DNA of 64,000 nt, taken from Polytrichum commune. Lineage: Eukaryota > Streptophyta > Polytrichopsida > Polytrichales > Polytrichaceae. The notes under the pieces were generated by a model. The model was not told the DNA's origin, ran no database searches, and saw nothing but the letters and a program-made list of their open reading frames with translations. Positions 1-58,624 of this stretch are shown piece after piece. Both the position numbers and the translations under genes were made by a program. Position 1 is the stretch's first letter, and each line of letters begins with the position of its first letter. Where the stretch lies: NCBI GenBank assembly GCA_950295325.1, contig OX485808.1, forward strand, positions 13,270,501 to 13,334,500. Reading direction: 5' to 3'.

Positions 1-228
1 TCGTGGGCATCCAAAACGTGAGAAGATGTTCGTTTTAAGGAACTTAGCCACTGTCTCTTTATCATCACGTTTAGTGGCTTCAGCCTCAGCCCATTTAGTG
101 GCATAGTCTGTAGCAACTAAGATGTAACGATGACGTCCACTCTTACTAGGGGGGTTAATCGGACCAACGAAATCTATCCCCCATTTCTCAAAGGGTGCTA
201 ATGCTAGGATAGGATGCAATGGCATTGC
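1..228 (-). pseudogene. Gypsy integrase core, N-terminal half (partial, cut by window edge)
   Basis: The minus-strand frame reads through an integrase catalytic core. It shows a WGIDFVGP motif with the first catalytic aspartate, then an ATDYATKWAEA stretch typical of plant gypsy integrases, ending in FSRFGCPR at the window edge. The second aspartate is present in ATDYATK; the rest of the triad is off-window. Upstream, the frame is separated from its zinc-binding part by the insertion at 229-1231. Removing that insertion and one TTGC copy rejoins the frame across a GKPTV/AMPLHP junction with no gap, so the insertion went into a once-continuous pol gene. Confidence 0.85.
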
Positions 229-1231
229 TGATGTGTCCGTAGGTGTCGCGCACCTCTCCATGAGGAGTGCCCGAAACACCATGGGCACAAGGGGGACCCC
301 GGAGTGACACCCGGGACTTGTGGCGCCGTTGGTGAGAGGGCCCAAGTGATCCTAGTGTGGGTGAGGGCCCCGGGCGTTGGGAACGCCTCCCACCCACGAA
401 GACTAGGAGGCACAAGGGTAAGGCCATGAGCTATGCGTAGCTCATGGCGTGGTGATTCTAGAATGCTCAAGAACACCTCAATCGGAGGTGTGAGCTAGGA
501 GTTATGGCCATTTGAGTGGGGCGCTGTCCCGGGACAGCGCCCTGGTACAGCAGTGCCTGGGAGGGATTCCCGGGACTGCCAAGGTTCAAACAGGCATAAC
601 TTCCTCAAGACTTGCTCGAATGGAGCAAGTGAGGAGTCCATCGGCATCTACGTGAAGCGTAGATGAGGATGGAGCGGTTGGTTGTTATGATCAGACATCA
701 TACAAGGAAGTTATGATGGTCTGAAGCTGCTGGGGGGTTCTAGGCCCAGCAGCTAAAGGAAAATGTCCACTTGGCCCCAACTCTTGGTAGGGAGACAAGA
801 GGTTGGTTGACGGTGGGGTAGGGGCCCCGCGTGAAGTCCTAGAGGCTTATATGGGTGAGGTGGTGTGGCCTCACCCACCCGAGGCCGAACGGCACGGCCT
901 CCATTGGCATTGGCCTAATGTGAGGCCATAGTTGCCTAGTATGGTTCGGGTTGTTGTAGTGTTGCTCCGGCAACGCGATGATCAACATAAGATTGGACTT
1001 CCATGGATGGAAGTCCACATCTAAGGATTGGTTACCGATTAAAGGGGTTGGTTAGCAATTGAAGGGGTGAGTCCCGAAAGCAAAGTAGGAGGGTTGGTTC
1101 CCCTCCTATGAACTATAAGGTCCGGGGTGAGAGGAGCTAACCATTAGCATGGCGGTATGCGAATGGTTAGCGCTCGTAACCTTTGCTAGGAAATGAAAAT
1201 TGGCAAGATGGTCAAGGAGGGCTAGCAAGGG
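229..1231. mobile_element. Unclassified 1,003-bp insertion built of consecutive stem-loops
   Basis: This GC-rich block interrupts the gypsy integrase and is flanked by TTGC at 225-228 and 1232-1235, which fits a 4-bp target duplication (ATTGC/GTTGC if 5 bp). I see no terminal inverted repeats, LTR pair, poly-A tail or protein domain. It consists of about 20 short inverted repeats laid end to end. Stems (left arm/right arm) include 356-365/386-397, 423-433/438-448, 473-479/485-491, 519-530/531-542, 550-562/568-579, 610-617/623-630, 645-652/658-665, 691-702/712-724, 725-734/745-754, 777-786/796-806, 852-860/869-877, 881-887/895-901, 994-1004/1007-1017, 1086-1093/1101-1108, 1136-1145/1162-1171 and 1178-1189/1222-1233. 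Several are perfect 10-12-bp stems with loops of 0-10 nt. I recognise no known family. Confidence 0.7.
519..542. repeat. 24-bp perfect palindrome inside the stem-loop insertion
   Basis: The two 12-base arms (519-530 and 531-542) are exact reverse complements with no spacer and are almost all G and C. It is the tightest of the many inverted repeats in the surrounding insertion. Confidence 0.9.
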
Positions 1232-1235
1232 TTGC

Positions 1236-2660
1236 GACAGTAGGTTTACCAACTCGTTGACATGCGTCACACTGTCTTGCATAGGTGACACAGTCATTGA
1301 ACAAGGTGGGCCACCAATACCCTGTCTATAAGACTTTCCTAGCGGTGACATTACCCGCAAAATGGCCTCCTGCGGGGTCACTATGACATCCTTGTAAAAT
1401 TAAGGGTATTTCTGAACTCATAATGCACCGTCTCAATATACCATCCTTGCTTTTCTTATATAAGGTGTCGGTAATGATAGAATATGGAGTTGCTTTGAAT
1501 AACAAACGTTGTTGTTGTTTCTTAGAAAAGTCCAAGGGGAATGTGTTGGTTTGGAGATAATTAATTATCTCAGCATACTCGGGTGACACTTTCTCTATGA
1601 AAAACAAATTAGCATCCGGAAAAGAATCATCAATGGGTTCTGTTCCTAACGTATCACTCAACCTTGATAAGTGGTCTGCATTAGCATGACTCTTACCTGG
1701 TCGCACTTGAACAGTAAAATTAAACTCTTGCAACAATAAGACCCATCTAGCTATTCTTCCACTCAGCTGGGGTTTGTTTATCATATACTTTAGGGCGTCG
1801 TGGTCCACATGGAATACGAACTTATACCCTAGTAGGTAATGTCTAAATTTTTGTACTGAGAAAATCATCCCTAAGGCTTCCCTTTCCGTAACTGTGTAAT
1901 TATGTTCCGCTTGAACTAGTTGACGACTAGCAAAGTAGATAGGATGGTCATGACCTTTCTCATCTTTTTGACTTAACACTGCACCAATGTCGACATTTGA
2001 CGCATCTACATACACCTCAAAATCCTTTTCCCAATTAGGGGCAACTAGAATGGGTGCAGATATTAACTTCTTTTTAAGCGTATTAAATGCTTGGGTGCAG
2101 GCCTCAGTCCAAATTGGTGGAGTGTCGGTTTTCTTTAGCAATTCGGTCAAGGGCATTGCAATGATGGAATAGCGAAAGATAAAACGATGATAATATCCGG
2201 CATGTCCCAAAAATCCCTTAACTTCAGTAACAGTAGTTGGTATGGGTAACGAAGTAATAATAGCAATTTTCTCAGGATCAGTGGCCACTCCTTGCTTAGA
2301 TATTATATGGCCAACTAATTTACCAAAGGGTACCAGAAACACAGACTTGGCAGTATTAATAGAAATTCCAACTGCCATACATTCATCAAAACATTCTTGT
2401 AGATGTTTGGCATGTCTCTCCAGAGTACTATATACTGCAAAATCATCTAGAAACACCTCCATCGTGCGATGAAGATATTTCCGAAAGGTGTTAATTCCTA
2501 ACCTGGAAAAAGTTCCAGGGGAATTACACATTCCAAACGGCATGCGAGCATATGCAAAAATGCCCCATGGTGTGGTAAAAGCAGTCAAAATCCGATGTGG
2601 TGGATATATGGAAATTTGATTATAGCCTGAAAACCCATCCATGAATGAATAGCAATCATA
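1236..2660 (-). pseudogene. Gypsy reverse transcriptase, RNase H and integrase zinc-binding region
   Basis: The minus-strand frame opens after a TGA at 2661-2663. It begins in the RT palm (MDGFSGYNQI), carries the catalytic FLDD box (a common YxDD variant) about 70 residues on, then the RNase H start (YVDASNVDIGAVLSQ) and its later blocks. It reaches the HHCC integrase zinc-binding segment: GGHFAGNVTARKVL, a TAG stop at 1326-1328, then the CDACQRVG cysteines. The flanking residues are continuous across the TAG, so it is a point nonsense change, most simply CAG to TAG. Frame and reading direction match the protease/RT segment upstream. Confidence 0.9.
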
Positions 2661-2663
2661 TCA

Positions 2664-4898
2664 TGCCACTTCATCTAACATAGTGTTAGTGAATGGCAAG
2701 GGAAAATAGTCTTTCTTAATGACACTATTCAACTTCCGATAATCCACACATATACGGAGTTTGCCATTCTTTTTGGGTACTAAGACAATGGGTGATACCC
2801 ATTCACTATATGGGATAGGATAAATTATGCCCACTTCCAATAACTTGTCAACTTCCTCTTTAACCAATAGGGAATACTTTGGATTCATTCGATATTGCCT
2901 TTGACGGACAGGGGTAGTCCCTTCTTCCAATATGATTTTATGCTCACAAATCTCCGGGGGAACTCCTCTCAAATCCTTATACGTCCACGCAAAGACTTTA
3001 ATATTTCTCTTAAAAAACTCCTTCCAAAACTTCCACTCATCTTTGGTTATCTTCTCATATATCTTGATGATACGGGGTGTCTCATCATCACTCAAATCCA
3101 TATCTCTACATACATATTTGACCACATAATGCTTAGCAGGTTGATCAGACTCGAACATTGAGGATTCCCATTTTTCGGCCAAATCATCTTTAGTTGGTAC
3201 TTTAAGTGTGGTTTCCTCTCGTACATTATACACTGATTGTAACTTCCGTGCTTCATTGGGTCGTGAGGCATGGGTGGAGACCATATTAACTGGCACGGTA
3301 TTTTGCCATGCTAAGATGGCATCATCCGAATCTCCATCCCCAAGCGCACAAAAATACTCTCCCATTCCCACAGGAGTGTATTTAAATGGCTTATCATTCA
3401 CACGGTATATGGATTCACTCGTAGTAGTTTCTTTCTCAGTTTCATCACTCACATCCGTCGTGAATTCAGTCTCGTCATCTTGAGTCTCACCATGGTATTG
3501 GGTAGGAAACAAAGGTAGAATTATCTTCTTTGGACCCTTTCCTATTGTAAGTGTACCCTTCCCCCAATCTTCTTTGGCATGGGCATCTAGCAACCATGTT
3601 CGTCCAAGAAGGCCTGGATAGGATGGTACACCATCCATAGTCTTAAAAACAACATAATCCACCTTATACTCAATGTTAGCAATGAGGGTTGGAATTTGTT
3701 CCAAGACTCCCAATGGCTTAACTCGACTGCTATCTGCCATTTTTAAAATGATGGTAGTAGATACTACATTGGATATTCCCAATTCATTCATGGTATCAAC
3801 ATTCATCAAATTGACACTTGATCCAGTGTCAATTTGGAATCCCGGTATAAGAGCACCTCCTATAATGACATCAACTGTAGGAGCTCCAGGATCTCGACTC
3901 AAAGTAATATCATGTACGGCGGCGGGTCTCGACCTTCTACGTATCATGGATGAACTCAAGGAACTACGACATTGTGGTGCTATTGCCAACAATTGTTTCA
4001 TTGTGATTGTGGGTTGTATTGTATCCAGATCTTCTATGATATCATAAGATTTAAGATCCTTAGACAACATCATCGTCCGTGATGATCGGGCAGATGATGG
4101 CTTAATCTTAGGTCTTTGGTTTTTTATGGGTATCTTTGGGTAAGGATAAAAGTTATCTGTCGGTGACATAGGTAAACGGATTGAACTTGGGGGGTTAACC
4201 ACAACAGTAGGTAATGGAACTCTTGCATTGTCAGGAGTTACGACAGGTGGTAAATTTGTCGATGGTAAATTAGGTTCCACTGTGGGTTTATCCTTTGGGT
4301 CTCTCATCAAAGGAGCTTGTGAATATTCCGAAAAACTAGTTCCATCATCACTATGTTGTTTATTAAACCTCTTAGTACTAGATCCTTCTCGTTGTATGGC
4401 GGGTTTCTTGTGGGATCTAGTAGTGACAGCGTTGACGTGTTCTTCCATTCGCTCAATTTTTGACAACTGTACCCTATGCACATTACGATCTTGTCCCTCA
4501 TCTTCTTGTATAGTCACATGCTTACTCTTTTTCCAATCTCTCTCAGAAGGTGGACCTTCCTTCTTCTGTTGGGTACACTCAACTGTAGGATGTCCTGCTT
4601 CTTTACAGTTCCCACATAATGGGATATATTGTTGAAATTTTCTAGGGTTGGGGCAATCTCCTGCATAATGACCTATCTCTCCCCATCGGAAACATACTAC
4701 AAACTGGTTGGGCATTGGTGTCTTATAATTTTGGGTTCGGGGGTTATATGGAGGACCCCTCCAATTGGGTGGTTGGTTAACTTCACCCCAACTTGGTCGA
4801 TTCCCAAAATTTAGAGGCACCGGCCTACGGTTGAAATTCTTTTTGGGATTGTAACTTGCATTAGGCCCACTATCCATGTGCTCTTGTTGCCAAGGTCG
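2664..4898 (-). pseudogene. Gypsy pol N-terminal part: two zinc knuckles, protease, start of RT
   Basis: The frame from the TAG at 4899-4901 to the TGA at 2661-2663 starts with two more zinc-knuckle motifs. The first has its second cysteine replaced (CFRWGEIGHYAGDC); the second is intact (CGNCKEAGHPTVEC). Next come a long basic and proline-rich linker, an aspartic protease with a DTGSSVNLM active site, then the RT fingers (VLVPKKNGKLRICVDYRKLN). It stays in the same frame as gag and as the RT/RNase H block, so the original product was a single gag-pol polyprotein in one frame. The break at 2661 falls at ...LDEVA/YDCYSFMDG, a well-conserved RT stretch, so the stop is a mutation and not a programmed site. 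Confidence 0.9.
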
Positions 4899-4901
4899 TG
4901 A

Positions 4902-6382
4902 CTAGTTAGTTTCTACCTGGTGAACAACTCGACTCTTAGACAAATTCCAACACTCATTTACCGAATGGTTCCCTCCACAAAAGGTGCATTTAACTCTCAG
5001 CCCTTTTGGTGAGGGGCACTCATTGGATAAATGACCATGTCCCTTACAATTATTACACCAAATATTAGTTCTTTCCTCAGTCGGTTGTGGTCGTTTATTA
5101 GCTCCTCTGGTTATTTTGACTTCCAAGTTTGCTAATTTCTTAGTAATGTCCATAAGGGCTAATTCTTGTGGAGTGGATTGAACAATTGGTGGAGGCTTTT
5201 GTATGACCTTAGGTGGTGCAAACAAATCTGCACTCGGGTGTTTGAATTGTGTGGCGTCAACCATGGGTTTAGCGCCCGGATATGTCAGTGATTGTCCTGG
5301 TAAAACTGGATGATAGGCTTGGTCCTTCCTAGGTTGCTCATAAAGGTCATAATTGTAGGTATCGAAAGTATATCGATCCTCAACACGAGACTCCTCCCAA
5401 GCCTTTGCCAATGCAAACGCATCCTCTCTGGTGGCTGGGGTGCGTTCTCTCACATAGAGTTTCAACTCAAAGGGGTATAGTCCTCCTATGAAGATATTCC
5501 TCAAGAAATTATTTGGGATCTGATGAGCTCCCATTCTCAGTAGGATGTCACTCATTCTCCCCCAATAATTATCAACAGTTTCATTTGTACCCATACGAAT
5601 GGTTCTCAATCTTTCCATTAGACTGTTCTCAAACCCTAAAGGTCTAAAGTATACAAGAAATGCATCTTTAAGGGCATCCCAGTCAGCAAATGGTGTTTGA
5701 TGGGAAAATCACAAGAACGCATTTTCTTGCAGGGTGGCGGCAAATGCTTCCATCATCTTATCATGTGGAACACTGTTTGCGGCACACACAATTTCAAATT
5801 TTCTGACATGGACATCAGGGTCTATTCCTAGTCTACCCTGAAAATAGGGTAAATTCACTACACTATTGATTCTAGGGGGATTGGCTGCCATATTGAGCAG
5901 TGGTACTACAGGTTGTAGTTGTACTACGGGTTGTAAGGAAGGAGGTATTAATTGTGCTACGGGTACTGATGGTGTGTAAGGTGTAAACAATGGGTTGCCT
6001 TGCACATTGGTGTAAACCGTTGTGTCAAGCACAAGAGATGGTGTACGTTCATAGGCAGTAGCCCACAACGGTGGAGTAGGTGAACTGGTGCGAGGTGAAT
6101 TATCAGTAAATAAAACTTTCGGTGATAAGAAATCCCTCTCAGCACTTGTTGTAGGTTTATTTACTGGTGTCTTAAAAATATCTCCTGGGATACTACCAGA
6201 ACCCTCTCTTACTTCCTCTAAGAATGGCTTAACCCAACTTTGTCTTCTATCATGTGTTTGTTTTCTATACTCTCTGGCTGCCGCTCTATCTTCTCTAGCT
6301 TTATCACTGGCCGCCTTCCTTACGGATGCAGATTGAGAATGAGATTTTTCATGTGTGGATTCCAGTTTGACTGCCTCTCCCT
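4902..6382 (-). pseudogene. Gypsy gag with two CCHC-type zinc knuckles
   Basis: The frame opens after a TAG near 6383. It has a charged N-terminal stretch, then a retrotransposon gag core with DWDALKDAFLVYFRPLG and TVDNYWGRMSDILLRMG blocks, and ends with CNNCKGHGHLSNEC and CTFCGGNHSVNEC knuckles before the TAG at 4899-4901. A TGA at 5709-5711 interrupts the core within FL*FSHQTPFADW; coding similarity resumes at once in the same frame, so it looks like TGG to TGA. The first in-frame ATG is in ...LLNMAANPPRI near 5890. The stretch before it is open but may be leader. Confidence 0.8.
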
Positions 6383-7473: not shown

Positions 7474-9377
7474 GTAGTAGGTTTTTGCTATGATTTTAAA
7501 ACAACAAAACCCAGGGAACAAAGTCTCCAAGAAGACTGAGATAGTGTCTATAAGAGTTAATGTCACATTGGATTAAGGATTTTAATAACATATTAGGGTC
7601 TTTCTTCCTTCATTCCTTCATTATTCCACTTATTCTCCCCCCTTATGGTTCCTTTGTGCTTCTTCAGTCGTGAGTGATTCCGTCCTATCTTCAGGGAAAG
7701 TTTCTATCACTCTATGTTTTTTTGACCTATTTCAGTCGTGAAGCTCAAAAGCTTGGCAAGTTGGCACTAACTCTTAGGCAGGACTGCGCGTCCAAAGCAC
7801 GTCTTTTGAGTAGCCTTCTTTGTCTTTATGTGTTATGAATTATGCTTGCGATCAATTCAAATTAATTCCAGTTAGTTTTACTTACAGTTCTCAGCGTTCC
7901 CTCAGAGACTGTAACCGTCTCCATCACTCTCCGATCCACATGGTCGTCCATCTCATAGAGTATCTATTCCGTCAATATATAAGATATATATATTTTTTAA
8001 ACAGGCTATATCCTTTAGTTAACAAGTTGTTATTACTTAGAAGGATTTTATCTACAACAAGTTCATCTCACCGGGTAAAGTCTTGCTTCTACCATGCGGG
8101 TGTTGTTTTCAGTCTTTTCTCTATTTCAGTCTATAAATTCTCTCAGACCTAACTGGCGATATTCTATCAGGCTTACCCATGCAATATCCTATTGTGGGGT
8201 AATTACCCTAAGGTGAGGTCAGTCCTCATCCTCGTACTAGGCTGTAACTCCTCACATTCTCTCAGGTAGGGTCTTGCCTCCCTCAGGCTTCTACGTCTGT
8301 GATTCCTCTACTGGCTATTGCCCTTTCGTCTCTCTGTAGACTGGTGGCCTTGCCATGACCACTCTCTGGTCTTGCCTTTACCCTTCTAGCCTCAGACTAT
8401 GGCTTTACTCACTCATCAGTCTCTATTCTCCATCCCAGGGTAAGTGGCTATGCTCTCAAGATTATTGCCTCTTAATCTTTCTTTCACTCACATCTTGACT
8501 CCCTCATGCCCTCAAACCTGACTCCATAGCCAACTGCTTGGGATTTCGCACTCTTCCTCGTACATCAAACTCTTCTTGCTTATGTGTCCTCTTTCGGCGC
8601 TCACAGCCTATTGCCTTTCCAGCGCATCTTGGTGTCTCTACCTCGGAAAGGCTATTGCCTGAGTATGCTTGCCTTTTCTAAGTATCTCATTCAATCACAC
8701 GCTTCTCTCCTGTTCTTACAACTTAAGAGCACTCTTGACTATGCTTCCAGACTACTTTGCGCTCTTAACAGCTTATATGTCTATTTCAATGCTCACGATT
8801 ATCGCCATTGCACTTCATCACTCCACATACTTTCTTGACATTATCTTCACACAAAATACTAACTCTCATCATTCTTACGACCATTGCTCACAACACCTCT
8901 TGACTCCAGCCAATTTGCATTGACTCACACGACCACAAGTATCAGTAAAACTTCATTGCACATACAACCAGATTACTGCTCATCACGATGACACTTCACT
9001 TATATTCAAATGTAATGTTGCCCAAAGACTGTATCACACAATTATTCTTTGCCTATTGCTAATACTCCTTCTCGGAGGAAACCAAGTAACACTCAGACTC
9101 AATCACTGAGCTCTGATGTCGCTAAAGCCTATTGCCAAACACTAGGAGACTATGCCTGATTTCTAACTCTGAAAATAGCCTGCCTACCTTCTGCTTCGCC
9201 TCCTCCTTGAGCTGACGAAGGAGGAGAAGTCGGTTAGGGATTGTAACCGATTCTTGACGGCGATAGCCCTTCGATGACGCTGCGGATGGCATTCCAAGAT
9301 CATTAGCCAGATGAATGTCATCACTTTTCAAAAAGTGGCCCACTTCCGGCAAGCGATAGCCAAAAATTGGTCTCACA
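7474..9377 (-). repeat. 5' LTR of the gypsy element (about 1.9 kb)
   Basis: In element orientation the LTR starts TGTGAGACCAATTTTTGGC at 9377 and ends CTACTACA at 7474, giving TG...CA ends. The inner end is fixed by the PBS. The outer end is fixed by the abrupt loss of copia coding at 9378 and by similarity of its first ~20 bp to another LTR start at 45405. An A/T-rich TATA-like stretch lies at about 7975-7997. A short motif GGCTATTGCC (or GGCGATAGCC) recurs at about eight places between 8312 and 9361. Confidence 0.75.
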
Positions 9378-10854
9378 CCGCCATACAAACCTCTTCCTCA
9401 TCCCCTAGGGAGATGGGGTTGCTCATTATCGGTTCGATAATGAGCCTATACAGGCCTTCGTCTCCCGCATACGCGGTGGCAAGGAGGCTCTGCCCTTGCC
9501 TGAGCTCCAGGACCTCCTCATCGATACCCACCGCGGTGGATACGTGGATTTGGTTGGCTCGTAGGTCTTGATAACTGATCAGGTTTCGAGGAGCCTCCGG
9601 GGCATACATAGCCCTTTCACAAACGAGGGGGAATCCCCCGGGCAGACCAAGAACTGCCCGGCCCTCCCGGAATTTAAACTTCCGGCTTCCGGCCATTATA
9701 ACAATGTTACAATGCTGCCAGGATGACTTGTTATTTGAGAAATTAAAGAATTTAGGATTCATGAGAATTGTGTGTATGGAAGCACTATCTAATAGTGCTT
9801 CGTTAGACTCAGATTCTGATTTCCCTCTCATGGCCATAAAATTCTCAACATCCAGGGTATTATCTTGTTGTATATCAATGTTATAATTCTCCCTGGATTG
9901 GTTTTTGAGCCTCTGAACCTCCAAGTTGTATAACTCAATTACATATGCAGATGCTCTACATTTCTTAGCATAATGCCCTTTGCGGCCATACTTGTGGCAA
10001 GTGCCCTTAGAAGGTTTAGAGGGTGGGTGCTTAGGTTGCTGGGGTGTCCCCCGTGAGACATACCTCTTAGGCTTGGATGTAAACCGCTTCGTGAACCCCT
10101 TAGGCGGTCTCCTCGGGGCTTCGGTCGCATGTGCCTCCGGTGGGGTGGCTGGAAGCTCCCTCGCCACTGGAATCGCCACGTGCACCTCCCGAGCAGGTCT
10201 TGATTCAGCATTCTTCAATAAGAGTTGCTGATGCTTCTCTGCAAGCAGCAGATGGGCCATGAGCTGTGAGTGTTGTGTGAACCTCATATTTCTATATTGT
10301 TGGGACAATATAGAGGTAGCAGGAGGAAATGTGGACAAAGTTTTCTCGATGAGCTCATTTTCGGTGATGGTTTCACCGCACAATCGCAATGTAGCAACGA
10401 TCCGATGCAACTCGGAGTTAAATGTAACGAAATCGGGAAAGTCTAAGACCCTTAGGTTAATCCAATCACTTCTGGCTTGAGGCAGAAATAAGGTCTGTTG
10501 GTGGTCAAATCTTTCCTTGAGTTGTGTCCATAACCTAGCTGGATCGGTAACCTGTATGTATTGTAATCGTAAGGAATGATCCAGATGTCGCCTAAGTATG
10601 ACTAAGGCTTGTGATTTGTATACATCAGATACCTCTTCTGCTGGGTTAGTTTCTAGGCAGATACCTAGTTCCTCTGCCGCTAGGTATTGTTTAGCGTCGT
10701 TAACCCATTCAAGAAAATTTGAACCATTAGAACTTAATGGTTCGAAGCAAAGCAACCTGGACCCTGTAGATGTAAATGATGATGATGATGATGGTCCTGG
10801 TTGAGTAGCCATAACTACTGGTTCAGTTTTCTTAAGTCTGGACTTTGACGCCAT
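9378..10854 (-). pseudogene. Copia gag and protease (truncated)
   Basis: The frame begins at ATG 10852-10854 and runs about 490 codons. It shows a UBN2-type gag: NGSNFLEWVNDAKQYL near residue 45, RRHLDHSLRLQYIQV, and QARSDWINLRVLDFPDF. A single zinc knuckle, CHKYGRKGHYAKKC, has its second cysteine replaced by tyrosine. The protease follows with LLDSASIHTIL, the DSA-x-H-T variant seen in a plant copia lineage instead of DSGAS. The last native residues are near DEEEVCMA; the stop just after belongs to the gypsy LTR. The gag reading frame is otherwise undamaged over 1.4 kb, so this copia copy was fairly young when it was hit. Confidence 0.88.
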
Positions 10855-18100: not shown

Positions 18101-21100
18101 ATGAACGATCTTCTGTCAAGATCGTTTGGGCGGAATCGAAACTATGTGGATCTCAAGAAGGACACCAACAGGGGGGACATTGAGCTGGGGGACACAACCG
18201 CGGGGGGCAGTGCGGAAGGCGAAGTTGACATGACCCGATTCTTCGATGAAGTGGGAGTGATCAAGAACGAGATGGAGCAAATCAAGCAATTCCTCGCAAA
18301 AGTGCAAGAAGCTCACGAGGAGACCAAGACGGTGCACAGGGCACAGGCCATGAAATCATTGCGGTCTCGTATGGATGCCGACATCTCCCAGGTCACCAAA
18401 CTTGCAAAGTCCATTAAGCTGAAGCTGGAGGAGCTGGACAAAGCCAACAGTGCAAATAGGAGGGTACGAGGATGTGAGGAGGGAACGCCCACTGACCGAA
18501 CTCGGACATCCATCACCAGCACTTTGAGGAAGAAGCTCAAAGACCTCATGGGGGAGTTTCAGATCCTCAGACAGAAAATCATGGGCGAGTACAAGGAAAC
18601 GGTGGAACGCAGGTATGTGCCACCTTAACAAAAATTGTGGGAAATGGAACTTTGTAGCACTGAGTGCATTTTTGTGATTGTTATGATCCGTAGGAAATCT
18701 CAAAATGCAGGTGAGCAGCGGTAAATGTCTTGTCAGTGTTGATACATATCCTTTTTCAGGGCTTAAGGTCTTGTCTGTGCTAATTCAACATTCAGATATT
18801 CAACTGTAATTTTCTCTTCTCAATCCTCCCGGCTCATTGCCACCATAACCTAATGTTTGGAGGATGCAACTTTGTAGCATTGAGTTTATTGTTATGATTG
18901 TTATGATTCATGGGCGATGACAGAATGCAAGTGAGCGGGGTTGACTGTTGAGTAAAGTGTTGATGGTGGCCTTTCTTGTCAGTGCTAACTCGAACGTTTA
19001 TCTATTCATCTGTAATTTCTCTTCCCAATCCTCCTTCCGGTTCATCGCCATCAAAACCTAAAAATTCTGGAGAATGCAATTTTGTAGCACTTTGTTCATT
19101 GTTATGATTGCTCTGATTCATAGGGCATCTCAGAATGCCAGTGAGCGGCCTTTACTGGCGAGTCGAGTGTTGATGCATGTCACTCAACTTTTAGGTATTC
19201 GTCTGTAATTTCTCTCCCCAATCCTGCTCCTGGGACATTGCCACCATAGCCTAAATATTTTGGAGAATGCAACTCTGTAGCACTGAGTTCATCGGTACGA
19301 TTCTTGTGATTTATGTGCCATCTTAGAATGCAAGTGAGCGGGGCTTACTGTCAAGTCAATTGTTGATACATATTCTTCTTCAGGGTTTGATGTCTTGTTA
19401 GTGCTAACTTAACATTTAGCTATTCATCTGTAATTTCTCTCCTCAATCCTCCCGGATCATTGCCACCATAACCTAACAGTTCTGAAGAATGCAACTTTGT
19501 AGTGAGTGCATTGATGTGATTGTTATGAGTTTTAGGGCATCTCAGAATGCAAGTGAGAGGCGTTTACTGTCGAGTCAGTGTCGATAAGTATCCTTTAGGT
19601 TTAATGTCTTGTCAGTGCTAAGTCAACATGTAGCTATTCATCTGTGACTTCTCTTCCCAATCCTCCCTCATTGCCACAGCCTAAAAATTCTATAGAATAC
19701 AACTTTGTGGTGAGTGCATTATGAATCATCGGCCATCTCAGTGACATGTGAGCAGCGTTGAATGTCGAGTCAGTGTTGATGCATACCCTTGAGGATTTAA
19801 TGGTTTTTCAGTACTGATCCACACCTAGCGACTTATTCATTCAACGTTTGATTCGACACATATTTCCACCTTGTAGGCTTGCAGCTATAAAATGTAAAAA
19901 GAAAAGATTAGAACTGCAACCCTCTGTCTTGGTAGGCATCAATCCAGTGATCTAGTTTGATGTGATTGAATGAATGTGAAATCGGTGTTAATATATGAAT
20001 CTAGAGGTTTGTGATGGCGCTATCAGTTAGACTATCTAGGATGGGAGTCATCAGTAGTAGCAAATAAACCTTGTGTCCAACATAAAAGAGCAGTGTTAAA
20101 TCTTCCCAGCCACATTTGTCGAATAACGCTCAATTCTTTACGCTGTGTGTTATACCTCTTGCAATGATCTACACAGCTTATTTTGAAGATGTTAAGAAGC
20201 TTCGACTTTGTATCTAGTGTTTGCATCATTCACGACTTTGCGAATCTGATATAAGTACCTGTGAAACGATCGTGTGTGTAATATGTAGTTTCTACTTGAT
20301 GCTAAGGCATTATAGTGAAAACTTAACCTACTCGACCGTGTCAGAGCCATGTTCATAACTGCTAGGGGTAATGGTTGCCGAGGTTTTTAAATTCATTCGT
20401 TTTAGAGCATCCCTTATGGTCACTGGAAATAAATCCTCTCAATAATCGGCCGCTTCCTGGGTTTTTGGTGGGACAAGGCCGGGTGCTCATCCCACCCACA
20501 CAGCCCAAACTTTTTTCATATCCTTACTGCCCACTTTAGCCTCCTCCGCCCTCAAGAATTGATGGTTGGAGTTCAGAGGGTTATGTCATTATGAAGACTT
20601 ATGAAGACATTGTATGTGACATGAGCATATGTGGCAACGCCCTGAAATAATTTGAAAACGGATTATTGAGAGAATCATTTTTTAGTGACCAGTAGGAGTT
20701 ACTTATAATTCTGTGATGGCATTCTCTGATGGCTATTTTCTTATCACTAAGGTAGACATACCCCCATCCAACAACGCTGTCAATTGTATGGCAATGGTAC
20801 ATAGTGTGGTTTTAGGTTCAGAGTTTGTTTGGGCTATGTTTCTTTACGCATGTGTGGTTGTACTGAGAATTTCCTTTATTTTTTCGGCTCTGTGACATCG
20901 CCAATCTATAACCTGGTCCAGCTTTACATTGTCAGAGGTTTTGATTCAGTGCATTGTTGTCTTGCAGGTACTACACAGTGACTGGACAACATGCAGATGA
21001 AGAAACAATTGAATCTATTATCGAGACAGGAAATAGTGAAACATTTCTACAAAAAGCCATCCAGGAGCAAGGGCGGGGCCAAGTCCTGGAGACGATCCGA

Positions 21101-31946: not shown

Positions 31947-32831
31947 CTAATCGTATTCAGGGACAAGCTGGGAGATTTTGCCCTCCTCGGCAGCAAGGCG
32001 CTGCTCCGTAACCCGTAACCATATGCACACAGCGCTGAAACTCAGTATCAAGCTGAGAAAACCACTACCAAGACCAATTCCTACGATGGCGAGGATGGAG
32101 AGGTTATGGGACTTGGGCTCAGGAATAGGGTAACCATACAGTCCTGAGTTCCCTTCGAACGACGAGATGTTGAACCTTGGTGCTCCAGTCGACGTGTTTG
32201 CAAGGCCTGTTGGAATAGGCCCGTCCAGATTGTTGTATGAAACATCAAAGATGCTGAGCTTTGACAGGGTGGTGAGCGCCACTGGAATAGTCCCTGTGAG
32301 CTGGTTGTATTGAAGGTCAAGCTCATGCAGGTAGGTGCAGTTTGCAAGCTGTGTTGGAATCTCACCTGTGAGATGGTTGTGGCTCAAATTGATGCTCATC
32401 AGGTAAGGAAGCATCCCAAGTCCCTGTGGGATTGAACCTGACAGCAAGTTTTGCGATAGGTCGAGGGTGAGCAGATTCGCACACAACGACAGGTTGGGTG
32501 AAATGGTTCCTGTGAGCCCATAGTTGCTTAAGTTCAGAGTCACCACACGACTACTGCTACAACTGATTCCAGCATACCTCTGTTCCTGGCCTGTCACATT
32601 GCAGGGAAACGCGGCATCCGTCCAGTTACTTAATAGCTGTGGATCTATGCTTGAGTTCACCTGCGCTTGAAATGCCTGTAAGCACGTAATATCATCCTTG
32701 CTCGGCTGTGCAAAAGTAGTTTTCCCCAAAATGAAGATGATTACCATCACCAGAGCAGATATGGAGACATGATGAAACACCAATCTGGTGCTAGCTAACA
32801 CTGGGCAACCAATACCACCATGCTGCTTCAT
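31947..32831 (-). CDS. RLP44: RLP44-like leucine-rich-repeat receptor-like protein (294 aa, single exon)
   Basis: In Arabidopsis, RLP44 is a membrane receptor-like protein without a kinase domain. It links cell-wall (pectin) state to brassinosteroid signalling by association with BAK1 and BRI1. This frame starts at ATG 32829-32831. A hydrophobic signal segment at about residues 22-41 is followed by a leucine-rich-repeat N-cap with cysteines 50, 77 and 91. Four repeats at about 96-215 follow ([51 protein letters not shown]), then a partial fifth ([13 protein letters not shown]). [16 protein letters not shown] precedes one membrane span at about 246-271. The tail [18 protein letters not shown] at 271-288 closely follows the family's short cytoplasmic tail. 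No kinase is expected. Length is as in the family and nothing is broken. A kinase-deleted BIR-type receptor is the main alternative, but the span and tail argue against it. Confidence 0.9.
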
Positions 32832-50964: not shown

Positions 50965-51880
50965 GGGCCACTTCACACACGAATGACCAGTCTAAAGGCC
51001 CGTGACCATTGCATTCTAAGATTTATCATTGGTCGAAAAGGCTGAGACCATCCAAGTTCACTTCACACTAGAAGGTGAACGCCTAAGGGCCCAAAGAAAT
51101 TGTCATGAATGAAAAGTCAACATGGATTCCAACATGGCACACTATCAATAAAGTTTCATAGTTTGTTGAAATTTGCGTCAAACCCACCCCCAAGAGGTAG
51201 GCTTGACGCAAATTCCAACATACCGCATCAATTTCTACACAAATCGGCTTTCCCAATTCTCATGGTACAACCTTTGGATGAGAGTCAAGGGCCCTCGTAA
51301 CTAGAGTAAATGCACTCGTAACCGATCGCTTAGAGATTTTGCGTCAAGTCTAGAGAAGTATAAGGCGGTGCAAAGTTTTCCCATGTAGGAAGATACAAAT
51401 GAGGAGGACTACAATTTATTTGTTGGTAATTTTATTCTTTAAATTGAAATTACTGTGGATTGTTGAAGCCAAAAGTTGGCCCAAACATATTACCAATGTT
51501 TAGAGTCTACCATAACTACTCACTCCTCCTCACTCTAGCACTCAAAACCATGACTCGTGTCATAACACTATTGATTCCAACATATTGAAATTAAATCCCA
51601 ACCTTATTAAAATTGTGTCCCACCATGATTGAAAATATGATATTATGTAGATTGATGATGGGGTCCTGATCGGGAATACATAACATTATTAAGCAGTGTA
51701 CTTTCGTTCATGTGGCCTTGAGAATATAATCATGGGATGCCACAACTACCTGCATTAACTACATTATTCCACGGTTATATTCTCAGGGCCCACATGAACA
51801 AACATACACTACTTAATAATGTTATGTAGGCACATCTAGTATACATAATCACGGACCTTGGCTCATGTGTGAAGTGGCCC
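50965..51880. mobile_element. Harbinger-type MITE family 1, copy 3 (916 bp, with a nested element)
   Basis: It has the same terminal repeats as 13439-13937 (GGGCCACTTCACACACGA, and CTCATGTGTGAAGTGGCCC at the right), with TTA at 50962-50964 and 51881-51883. The first ~150 bp align with copy 1. The interior is longer and partly unrelated. Confidence 0.85.
51677..51828. mobile_element. Foldback MITE with ~53-bp arms, nested in MITE family 1
   Basis: Left arm 51677-51729 and right arm 51775-51828 are near-perfect inverted repeats (outer part TACATAACATTATTAAG). A related, more decayed copy lies at 62265-62450. Confidence 0.8.
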
Positions 51881-51994
51881 TTACTTCATAATGGTGTTGA
51901 ACTACCACTATCTCTTGAAACCAATCAATGAGTGTAGCGGAAGGCTTGGAGTACCACATCCCTGTGTAAAATAAGAACTACTACATAGGTAAAG

Positions 51995-52240
51995 TCAGTG
52001 TCCGGGGTGTTTTTTGGGGCATAATCGGTCAAAATCTTAGTGTTTCAAAGTCCAACCGGTCACTTGGTTATGATCTTTCAGTTTTTGTTTATTGATCTGA
52101 GATATGTTCTTTAGAATCCCCTAAAATGATGGGTAATACCCCTAAGTCTTGAACTTTCAACTGCTTATTTCTCAAGCTCAACCGGTTCATCATCTATAAC
52201 TAGTGGTTGGTTCTCCCCGTTCATTGATTGGTTAACCTTG
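51995..52240 (+). repeat. Dispersed repeat family Y, copy 2
   Basis: See 27100-27345. Confidence 0.65.
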
Positions 52241-55830: not shown

Positions 55831-58624
55831 CCGAGTTAGCCACATCTGCATAGATGTGTGTTATTTGAAACTTCTCTTTTTGCACCCACTTCTTGTATGG
55901 CCCTTCTTGTAGGATATGTACTAGATACCACTATATGCGAGAAGCCATGCTACAAGTTTTAGCAGGGTGGCACATTTAATATATCAAGCATAACACTCAC
56001 CATGTCATGAGGGTTGCTTGATATAGTCTATATACGTCATGTGCATGTCCAATGAAGATGCAACACATCAATGAGATTTAAGATGGTGAGCATTATGGAA
56101 TTCTTGGTAATATGACATTTTGGTTTCCATGTTGTAGTATTGAGGTTTTCCAAGAGAATGGCCTATTTCAATATAGAATGTCATTTTATATGCATAATGA
56201 ATATACATAAGTATGAAAGATGCATATGAACTGAAGGAATACGCTCACAAAGTTCCCCAATGCTCACAACATTTCCCCCAATGTTTTTCAATGAAACGAA
56301 ATTGATCTCAAAGTCAACGAGCCGATGCTTACAATGTTCCCCAAGGTTTCCATGGATGTTCCAAAGCACTAATCACATATGAACCTTGGAATACACATGG
56401 ATCCCACCACTCATGCACATTAGTTACCTCTATTATATGACAAATTAGGCCTAAAAATGTCATATTACAAGCATTGTAGTCACAATATCATGGAGGTAAA
56501 CTTACAATAAAAAGTTGATTGATAGAAAATGCATCACATAATTGAGGTGTTGTGTAACTGAGTGTCATATGGAAGGTAGGGGATAGTCAAACGAATTCAA
56601 GAGGACAAAATATAGTTTAATTGAGAATATGGTGAAACACCAACTTGAAGGCCTTACACCTAAGAAGTTATTAGGTGTGGGAAAAAACTTACATGACCTA
56701 AGAAAATGAAAATTTTCGAAGTTAGGAACCAACCTTGAGACCAAATTCCTTGGAGTTATGCACATGTCAAGGCCGTTATTCTTCTACCTTGGCTTATCAA
56801 AGTCCGTTTCAAAACTGGCGTTTTTGAACATGTGTGGCCTCCCCTTCAATCTAAGTGTAGAATTGGTAAAGATATCACTAAGGAACCTACACATATAATG
56901 GACATATTTGGTTAGTGTTACTTTCATAGGCTTTCCAAGCACAAATTAAGATCACATGTGACGATATGAACATTGTTTTGTTAGTGAGTTATTATTTAGT
57001 CAACCTAATAACTGTTTTGTTTGTAGATTTTAATAAATGGTGGACAAATTATCCATCGTAATGATAAGAGATACCAATTTTGAGACAATGAATCATATGC
57101 ACATTTTAAAATTTGATTGTTTGAATTCAATTTCGATATGTTCAAATTTGTTTTCTGTGTGCAGAAATAATATGTCCAACGACTCTTCATTGTTAAACAT
57201 CACCCTTTTTGGGGATGAACCAAAATCATCAATGTTGCTATGTTCACAACATTAGCAACTCTATTACAATTCAATTGTCACAAAAAAATTGGATTATTGA
57301 ACTTATCCCCCCCCCCCCTTTTAGGGTACACAAGCAAATAAAAATTACCACTACACAATGGTTGATTGGAGGAAAAAAATGACACAGTGTGCCCAAAGGT
57401 GTCAAAACCTCTTGAAATATATTCAAAATATAACTTCCAAAGTTCTCATGATGAGAACATGTATGTAAGGAATCAAATCTCGGCCCCTTGGGGATGGCTT
57501 TGAATTCATGACAACCATGTTAAGATGTATGGCTAAAACCACCCCCATATAGATTGATGGTTGATTCATCCAAACTTAATATCTCCGGAATAATTTGAGA
57601 ATCATGGTGTTGATTCCATAGTCGAAGTTTCTTTAAAATAGAGACATCCAATATATAAGAAATTCCCAACATTTTCACCTCCGATTTATGTGGTCGGTTT
57701 GTTAGTCCTTCAAGGTTTAAAGAGTTGTAAGTTCACCATATTGCTTGAGTAAATTGTTTCTTAAAATATGACTTGGCACTATAATCAACATCAAAGACTT
57801 GGTATTGATATGTGAGGATTTTTTTTTTTTTTTTTTTTTTTTTTTCAATTTTCCGCTTCTCAACCTTAGGTACAAGTGTAACGCTCAGTTTACGACTTTG
57901 GTAGGCAAGAAACACACGATGACCTACCGAGTCATCTTCTTCTATCAATGAAGACCGTGATGCAATGCCAAGGACATTGGGACCATCACCATGCTATGAG
58001 TGGATCAAACTTTGGACTTCTGTGTCTTTTGTTTCACCTAACTACACCACTTCAACATTATGAAGACCATAATGTTGACCATAATTATTGTGGTCCGCAA
58101 TAATTATGAAGTCAATACGAAAGTTTGGTCTCAAAAAGTTGGTGTGCAACACAAAGAAACACATTTGACATGATAAGTCTACAAATTTTGATTGAAATAA
58201 GATATATTATAATTATATAAGTATGAATATCATGTCCATATCTCATGTGACGTCATTGTTGTCATTGGAGATGTTCACATCATGCCACTTGGCATGTCCA
58301 CACGTTCATCGATATATGTATCATGCCAAGTCATGTGACACATCATCCCACATGCGATTTGTTGACATGACATTATTATAGACGCTCCATTCCATTTCTA
58401 AAGGCATGATTACCCGTCATGCACCAAAGAAAATGGTGTAAGGGCTCACCCGTTAGCCACAATGAAAGCGCTTGTCACTTACCTCTATGGAATTATTTCT
58501 AGTGCTAGGAGCAATACATATGAAAGGTAGGGACTTGAGCATGAAGAGAGGTAGCGGGAGGATTAGGAAGATTAATTGGAATGTCGGTTGCGAATGTGGT
58601 GGGGAACACCAAATCGGGTTCTTG
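55831..58624. other. Non-coding AT-rich stretch
   Basis: A C-run lies at about 57308-57319 and a T-run at about 57820-57845. If the T-run is a minus-strand poly-A tail, no LINE sequence is recognisable beside it. No genes were seen. Confidence 0.5.

Follow-up and report, generated by a model that had tools for sequence, protein, structure and literature searches.

A recently copied, gene-less Ty3/gypsy-type retrotransposon family of Polytrichum commune whose long terminal repeat is a row of predicted hairpins

Introduction

Descriptions of retrotransposon LTRs usually cover their ends, promoter and polyadenylation signal. Structured RNA is already known from non-autonomous LTR elements, and so are single stem-loops in LTRs. 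The LARD element Sukkula has LTRs of about 4.4 kb, and a conserved structure has been described for its central domain. Retrozymes are non-autonomous plant LTR elements presumed to use the Ty3-gypsy machinery; about 70% of their nucleotides are paired and solo LTRs occur (PMC4918200). TRIM elements, including Cassandra, are likewise non-autonomous and are assumed to depend on movement in trans, and a conserved predicted fold involving the LTRs is given for Cassandra (PMC7215508). Stem-loops have been connected with the residual conservation of long R regions, and the inverted repeats of Sire LTRs would place the PPT in an exposed loop (PMC3601003).

The sequence analyzed here, called the window, is a 64,000-nucleotide stretch of the Polytrichum commune genome in which a 1-kb block of consecutive hairpins interrupts a gypsy element. 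The reading proposed, with a probability of roughly two in three, is that the block represents one solo LTR from a recently copied, gene-less Ty3/gypsy-type family and that selection on the folded sense RNA has likely preserved its hairpins. Such folding would ease packaging and reverse transcription by the proteins of a relative.

Identity and borders of the block

The block is the solo LTR of a Ty3/gypsy retrotransposon, probably one of the chromovirus type. It spans window positions 244–1239 (996 bp) and copies align with it over the whole length. The LTR starts with TGTCGC (positions 244–249), which is found inverted at the opposite end as GCGACA (positions 1234–1239), and is framed by the 5-bp target duplication GTAGG at positions 239–243 and 1240–1244. 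The plus strand of the window is the sense strand, on account of the strand of the primer-binding site.

A first-pass annotation, made from the window alone, had placed the borders at 229 and 1231 with a 4-bp duplication, TTGC. These borders are rejected: other copies in the same genome begin about 15 bases after position 229 and extend beyond 1231, and they align end to end as 244–1239. The TTGC match is due to chance and the real duplication is the 5-bp GTAGG. The statement that no LTR fitted a known class was mistaken, since the block is itself the LTR. A hairpin-based mobile element of unknown type had also been considered, and this does not hold in view of the TG...CA ends, the 5-bp duplications, the primer-binding site, the purine tract and the paired LTRs. 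The other suggestion, a structured-RNA retroelement, came close; the hairpins and the retroelement stand, and the actual class is a Ty3/gypsy-type LTR. MITEs, foldback elements and Helitrons were rejected as candidates because the ends of DNA transposons are not found and LTR anatomy is present instead.

The LTR sits in the minus-strand pol region of the interrupted gypsy element. The downstream part of that element is at positions 1–238 (minus strand, an open frame) and the upstream part, with RT, RNase H and protease-like sequences, is at positions 1245–5618 (minus strand), RT and RNase H lying within 1326–2642. By arithmetic on the unjoined flanks, the gypsy reading frame is in phase across the insertion, with no stop in the 81 codons of the left flank and one in the 78 codons of the matching right-flank frame. 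This is compatible with borders at 229–1231 as well as at 244–1239 and does not decide between them. Elsewhere the window displays a copia-type gag-like open reading frame (9373–10854), a syntaxin exon (18101–18628) and a leucine-rich-repeat open reading frame (31947–32831).

Copies of the LTR and the dead interior

The search of the own genome covered 408 Mb in 64 contigs and scored 40 of 3922 candidates, so that the counts are lower bounds. There are at least 46 matches, and at least 40 of these, window copy included, are near-complete at 98–100% identity. The claim that the block moved as one unit is thus borne out by at least 39 other near-complete copies of 98–100% identity, and the proposed search for further copies yielded ends that align and target duplications of 5 bp.

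Forty LTRs were examined, i.e. the window copy and 39 near-complete copies fetched with their flanks. Eleven are solo LTRs with perfect 5-bp duplications. In 15 of the 40 the LTR is followed downstream by two bases and then TGGTATCAGAGCAGGG (motif C[G/T]TGGTATCAGAGCAGGG), and 12 have the purine-rich tract TTTGGTGGGGGTGAG on their upstream side. TGGTATCAGAGCAGGG is the motif of iMet-primed elements, and the primer-binding site TGGTATCAGAGC is of the iMet type. The remaining two, L025 and L037, belong to none of these categories. The outer flanks of L025 are those of the full-length copy L015/L020, i.e. the same insertion is seen both full and solo. The two lie about 12 kb apart in opposite orientation at C2:11724822-11743572 of this genome (G000), and by these flanks they represent one insertion that was duplicated, with one of the copies cut down to a solo LTR. 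Among 11 diverged copies tested, five have a target duplication, one of them a full element, and the other six are LTRs with element sequence on one side. Whole elements at C3:35617767-35625543 and C5:2564401-2573392 are each nested, in opposite orientation, within a family LTR.

The LTRs are 992–996 bp in complete young copies and enclose an interior of about 5.1 kb. The family was copied recently, since ten LTR pairs differ by only 0, 0, 0, 0, 0, 1, 1, 1, 2 and 3 substitutions of about 992; recent arrival, which the first-pass annotation had offered as one explanation of the intact stems, is supported to that extent. The family is also protein-less. Twelve interiors, some of them partial, were examined for coding capacity. 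Nine of these (L048–L056) have 37–99 stops per sense frame and a longest open stretch of 171 aa, and in the three others no sense-strand open stretch exceeds 181 aa. No intact protein gene was found in the 12 interiors sampled, i.e. no sense open stretch longer than 181 codons. The open pieces have ends that are common to the interiors of different copies; therefore the dead state was inherited. The family would move in trans.

Remnants of the ancestral coding sequence are seen in L048, where the Pfam search covered 8 of 10 open reading frames. An RNase H remnant (positions 2335–2589, E-value = 1.7e-5) and an integrase remnant (positions 3311–3718, E-value = 0.19) are both below the Pfam cut-off. 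The RNase H remnant is upstream of the integrase remnant, which is the Ty3/gypsy order. The 171-aa integrase piece has 58 relatives, which support its identity as integrase. Eight of them carry PF00385 (Chromo), and this suggests a chromovirus, although no such domain was found in the dead interior itself. The interiors differ by up to about 18% in places, compared with the 98% likeness of LTRs that were picked for likeness. Tandem repeats of about 230 bp at positions 1790–2461 of L048 vary between copies.

Predicted fold of the LTR

The near-continuous inverted repeats described in the first-pass annotation are real and far beyond chance, as judged by shuffles and by 62 control tiles, and the hairpins it named are present. 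The stretch 229–1227 folds at -466.8 kcal/mol (z = -13.5, 20 dinucleotide shuffles). Both strands of the LTR proper, 244–1239, are far more stable than shuffled sequences, with z = -10.5 for the sense and -12.8 for the antisense strand (pair span up to 160 nt, 200 shuffles). There are nine perfect inverted repeats of 8 bp or more in 244–1239, where shuffles give a mean of 0.3 and a maximum of 3. The 62 control tiles, of 996 nt each and taken from the rest of the window, reach a lowest z of -6.98 and have at most three such repeats. In the predicted fold 666 of 996 bases are paired. Windows of 200 nt along the sense strand of the LTR have z values of -1.6 to -6.2, and the interior shows weaker folding patches, with 200-nt windows down to z = -5.3. 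G-U pairs are fewer than in shuffles, 10% compared with 17% in the sense fold and 4% compared with 9% in the antisense fold. No Rfam match was found up to E = 1 in window positions 200–1300, nor at gathering level in L048, L071 and L076. Other strong folds in the window are at 51101–52096 (z = -6.98) and 58001–58200 (z = -4.57).

From the 5′ end of the sense strand, the fold begins with a predicted hairpin at 248–270 and a predicted long hairpin at 340–419, in which pair 352/406 is C-G here and T-A in the sister LTR L071. An 11-bp hairpin follows at 423–448, whose pair 428/443 is changed from G-C to A-T in L071, and then a predicted hairpin at 465–495. A predicted branched stem around two hairpins occupies 498–603, and the spacer-free perfect palindrome of 24 nt is at 519–542. 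The hairpin at 610–630 has both sides changed at 616/624 and 617/623. Further predicted hairpins are at 637–673 and, with 10 bp, at 725–754. The TATA-like TTATAT at 847–852, a putative core promoter, lies in a nearly invariant stretch. Predicted hairpins are also present at 853–876 and 877–951, the latter a long one and the putative start of R.

Downstream of this, the hairpin at 952–987 has its outer pair changed from T-A to A-T in two relatives. The hairpin at 994–1017 has the same stem in L064:400-678, with the loop GG read as CC. The hairpin at 1018–1069 has grown by an insertion of about 21 nt that diverged copies lack. These nucleotides, at positions 1041–1062, are found in the window copy and L008 but not in the diverged copies, and they look like a tandem duplication that enlarged a hairpin. 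A predicted 9-bp hairpin (1086–1111) and a predicted hairpin that is poorly kept in L071 and L064 (1136–1171) follow. The LTR is closed by a 16-bp stem at 1174–1237, with both sides changed at 1176/1235 and 1178/1233, which adjoins the position of the primer-binding site in full-length kin. A motif search of the LTR gave GGTTGGTT four times, to which no meaning is attached; it is on the sense strand only, at window positions 676, 801, 1046 and 1092, partly in loops.

Conservation of the fold between copies

Natural selection has likely maintained the hairpins, acting on the sense RNA in its folded form. Selection on folding was one of the two explanations first proposed for the intact stems, and the stems do look selected by fold energy, by changes on both sides of pairs and by depletion of variants. 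The sister solo LTR L071:1981-2904 (duplication GTCAC) differs from the window copy by 173 substitutions in 919 columns. It folds at -383.5 kcal/mol, and the same changes placed randomly give -320.3 (sd 11.3). None of 60 placements matches the real fold, and the comparison in the reverse direction agrees. For five nearer relatives, 1, 0, 0, 2 and 0 of 60 random placements were as good, the relatives tested standing 33–173 substitutions from the window copy. The distant L064 piece, with 92 of 279 positions changed, was equalled by one of 200 placements. Circular shifts of the change pattern, which keep its clustering, were as good in 0 of 80, 0 of 80 and 1 of 80 cases.

These energies bear on the view that the hairpins have no current role, i.e. 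that the LTR was built from accumulated inverted duplications and is folded only because the copies are young. The ten LTR pairs 0–3 substitutions apart agree with it, as does the hairpin sequence that the window copy's lineage gained through an insertion of about 21 nt. It is nevertheless quite improbable, since relatives 33–173 substitutions away fold better than random placements (0–2 of 60 each; 0 of 80), and since shared variants, but not singletons, are halved in stems (see below).

Changes on both sides of a pair were sought in 27 LTRs. Eleven of 333 pairs display such changes, compared with 2.9 in shuffles (none of 500 as high) and 3–9 with slid partners. The adjacent pairs 616/624 and 617/623 are found among the copies as TC:GA, CC:GG, CT:GG and CT:AG. 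Pair 617/623 (columns 379/385) is C-G in 17, U-G in two and U-A in one. Further standard pair types are not above shuffles (94 and 94.7), and in the L054 copy 11 of 15 one-sided stem changes broke the pair.

Variants were counted in 52 LTRs. Left out of this count and of the count of stem transitions below were 11 of the 40 young rows (partner LTR of the same element, or a duplicate locus) and 4 of the 27 A1 rows (the window copy and L008, which are already in the young set, and the partners L076a and L061a); L060n and L073n were both kept, although they probably belong to a single element as its two ends. The young set comprises the 40 LTRs that match the window copy best, which biases it to similar copies, and the diverged copies were drawn from neighbourhoods of known copies rather than at random. 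Of the variants present in at least two LTRs, 68 fall on the 456 paired sites and 76 on the 262 unpaired ones (ratio 0.51, P = 1.1e-5). For singletons the two counts are 127 and 83 (ratio 0.88, P = 0.31), and the interaction has P = 0.017. Constraint during transmission is likely because shared variants avoid stems and singletons do not. The depletion is clearest in the putative R-U5 (ratio 0.46, interaction P = 0.003) and is weak in U3 (ratio 0.61, interaction P = 0.53). With two hypervariable loops removed, the ratio is 0.58 (P = 0.001) and the interaction has P = 0.10.

The direction of the stem changes points to the sense strand. Shared stem transitions comprise 21 that leave a wobble pair in the sense RNA and 8 that leave one in the antisense (P = 0.024); shared transitions at unpaired sites, used as a control, give 18 and 23 and differ from those in stems (Fisher P = 0.028). 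Constraint in the sense RNA is likely because of this wobble excess. Singleton stem transitions are 39 and 33, and the shared and singleton ratios do not differ significantly (P = 0.12). The excess is in U3 (17 to 6) and not in R-U5 (4 to 2). Substitutions were polarised with an outgroup, as the majority base may differ from the ancestral one. The 68 on internal branches have a mean cost of 0.28 kcal/mol, compared with 1.15 for random changes of matching type (P = 0.0009; antisense, P = 0.0007). The 79 terminal-branch changes are expected to be mostly neutral, yet their cost in the sense fold, too, is below that of random changes (0.83 compared with 1.39, P = 0.013; antisense P = 0.23).

Antisense fold energies are about as well conserved as those of the sense strand. 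Together with the scarcity of G-U pairs, this makes a DNA-level process that keeps the arms alike possible. One process of mutation that would do so is template switching from arm to arm during reverse transcription or replication, which sometimes flips the loop. The near-perfect Watson-Crick stems, G-U-poor on both strands, and the conserved antisense energies are in accord with it. So is the 994–1017 hairpin, whose stem is the same and whose loop GG is CC in L064:451-475, as after a flip of the whole hairpin; this flipped hairpin (994–1018) may be a template-switch trace. Template switching does not predict that shared stem transitions lean towards sense wobble (21 to 8, with 18 to 23 at unpaired sites), nor the one-sided wobble states at covarying pairs, e.g. 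617/623, and as an account of the hairpins it is considered unlikely. A role of the hairpins in DNA or in silencing, where cruciforms or hairpin small RNAs would steer integration, methylation or recombination, is less probable still than either of the other alternatives. Both strands do fold well, and at least two elements lie inside an LTR of their own family in opposite orientation, but chromatin-targeted elements that form dense clusters would be expected to nest in this way, and by the wobble bias it is the sense RNA that matters.

In an interior control of six segments with 12–14 sequences each (L048 coordinates), depletion has P < 0.05 in three, namely 20–660, which is the leader (P = 0.004), 4000–4500 (P = 0.006) and 4500–5067 (P = 0.04). 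No depletion is seen in 950–1780 and 3200–4000, and that in 2470–3200 is non-significant (P = 0.08). Stem depletion of shared variants is thus not confined to the LTR. The leader and the 3′ end, where one would expect packaging signals, may be under the same constraint.

Possible function of the hairpin row

The family is probably a non-autonomous LTR element whose LTR would serve as a structured RNA for packaging and copying in trans. Since the TATA-like TTATAT at 847–852 is conserved, transcription may start near position 880. The R-U5 leader of about 360 nt would then be a hairpin row (877–1237) just upstream of the primer-binding site. Such a leader may be affordable because nothing has to be translated, and it would keep the RNA off ribosomes. 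The untranslated RNA would be on offer to Gag and RT of an autonomous chromovirus helper, and palindromic stems, e.g. 519–542, could aid its dimerisation. The solo state of the window copy would have arisen by recombination between LTRs.

A stronger version can be offered only tentatively and appears more doubtful than the reading above: that this is a new kind of parasitic LTR retrotransposon with all genes dead, whose 1-kb LTR is an RNA device of about 20 covarying hairpins under selection, acting as a trans-packaging and copying signal that outcompetes helper RNA. If the hairpins of this gene-less element are indeed constrained as RNA, the family is a natural test of the RNA structure needed for packaging and reverse transcription by foreign-made proteins, and a hairpin-tiled LTR with a dead interior is a signature for finding similar elements.

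Comparison with known elements

None of the titles and abstracts matched, a set with poor coverage of subscription journals, mentions hairpins tiling an LTR, and to that extent a dead element whose LTR carries about 20 conserved hairpins is apparently new. A pattern scan of viral contigs gave two chance matches in unrelated viral coding sequence. The LTR and R-region cases cited above from PMC3601003 are single or few stem-loops, whereas here about 20 span the whole LTR.

The element resembles retrozymes in its solo LTRs and in the proportion of paired bases (666 of 996 in the predicted fold). Retrozymes differ in having a hammerhead ribozyme in LTRs of about 350 bp and only 600–1000 bp between them, whereas the LTR here is 996 bp and the interior about 5.1 kb. 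No hammerhead is seen in the LTR, where Rfam gave no match (E up to 1, window 200–1300), and the retrozyme assignment was rejected. TRIM elements and Cassandra have short LTRs and almost no interior; with an LTR of about 1 kb and an interior of about 5.1 kb this class does not apply either. Cassandra in addition carries 5S rRNA sequence, for which there is no Rfam match here.

Like chromoviruses, the family has the primer-binding site TGGTATCAGAGC, 5-bp duplications and an integrase remnant with chromodomain-bearing relatives, but unlike them it has no coding capacity in the 12 interiors examined. The organization also resembles that of LARD elements, e.g. Sukkula, which are likewise non-autonomous LTR elements with a large interior lacking protein products. 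The interior here is likewise large and non-coding (sense stretches of at most 181 aa in 12 interiors, some partial). LARD LTRs, as in Sukkula, are several kb in length and those of this family are 992–996 bp. The family further differs from LARD elements in that its strongest structure is in the LTR and its interior still displays a dead RNase H and integrase.
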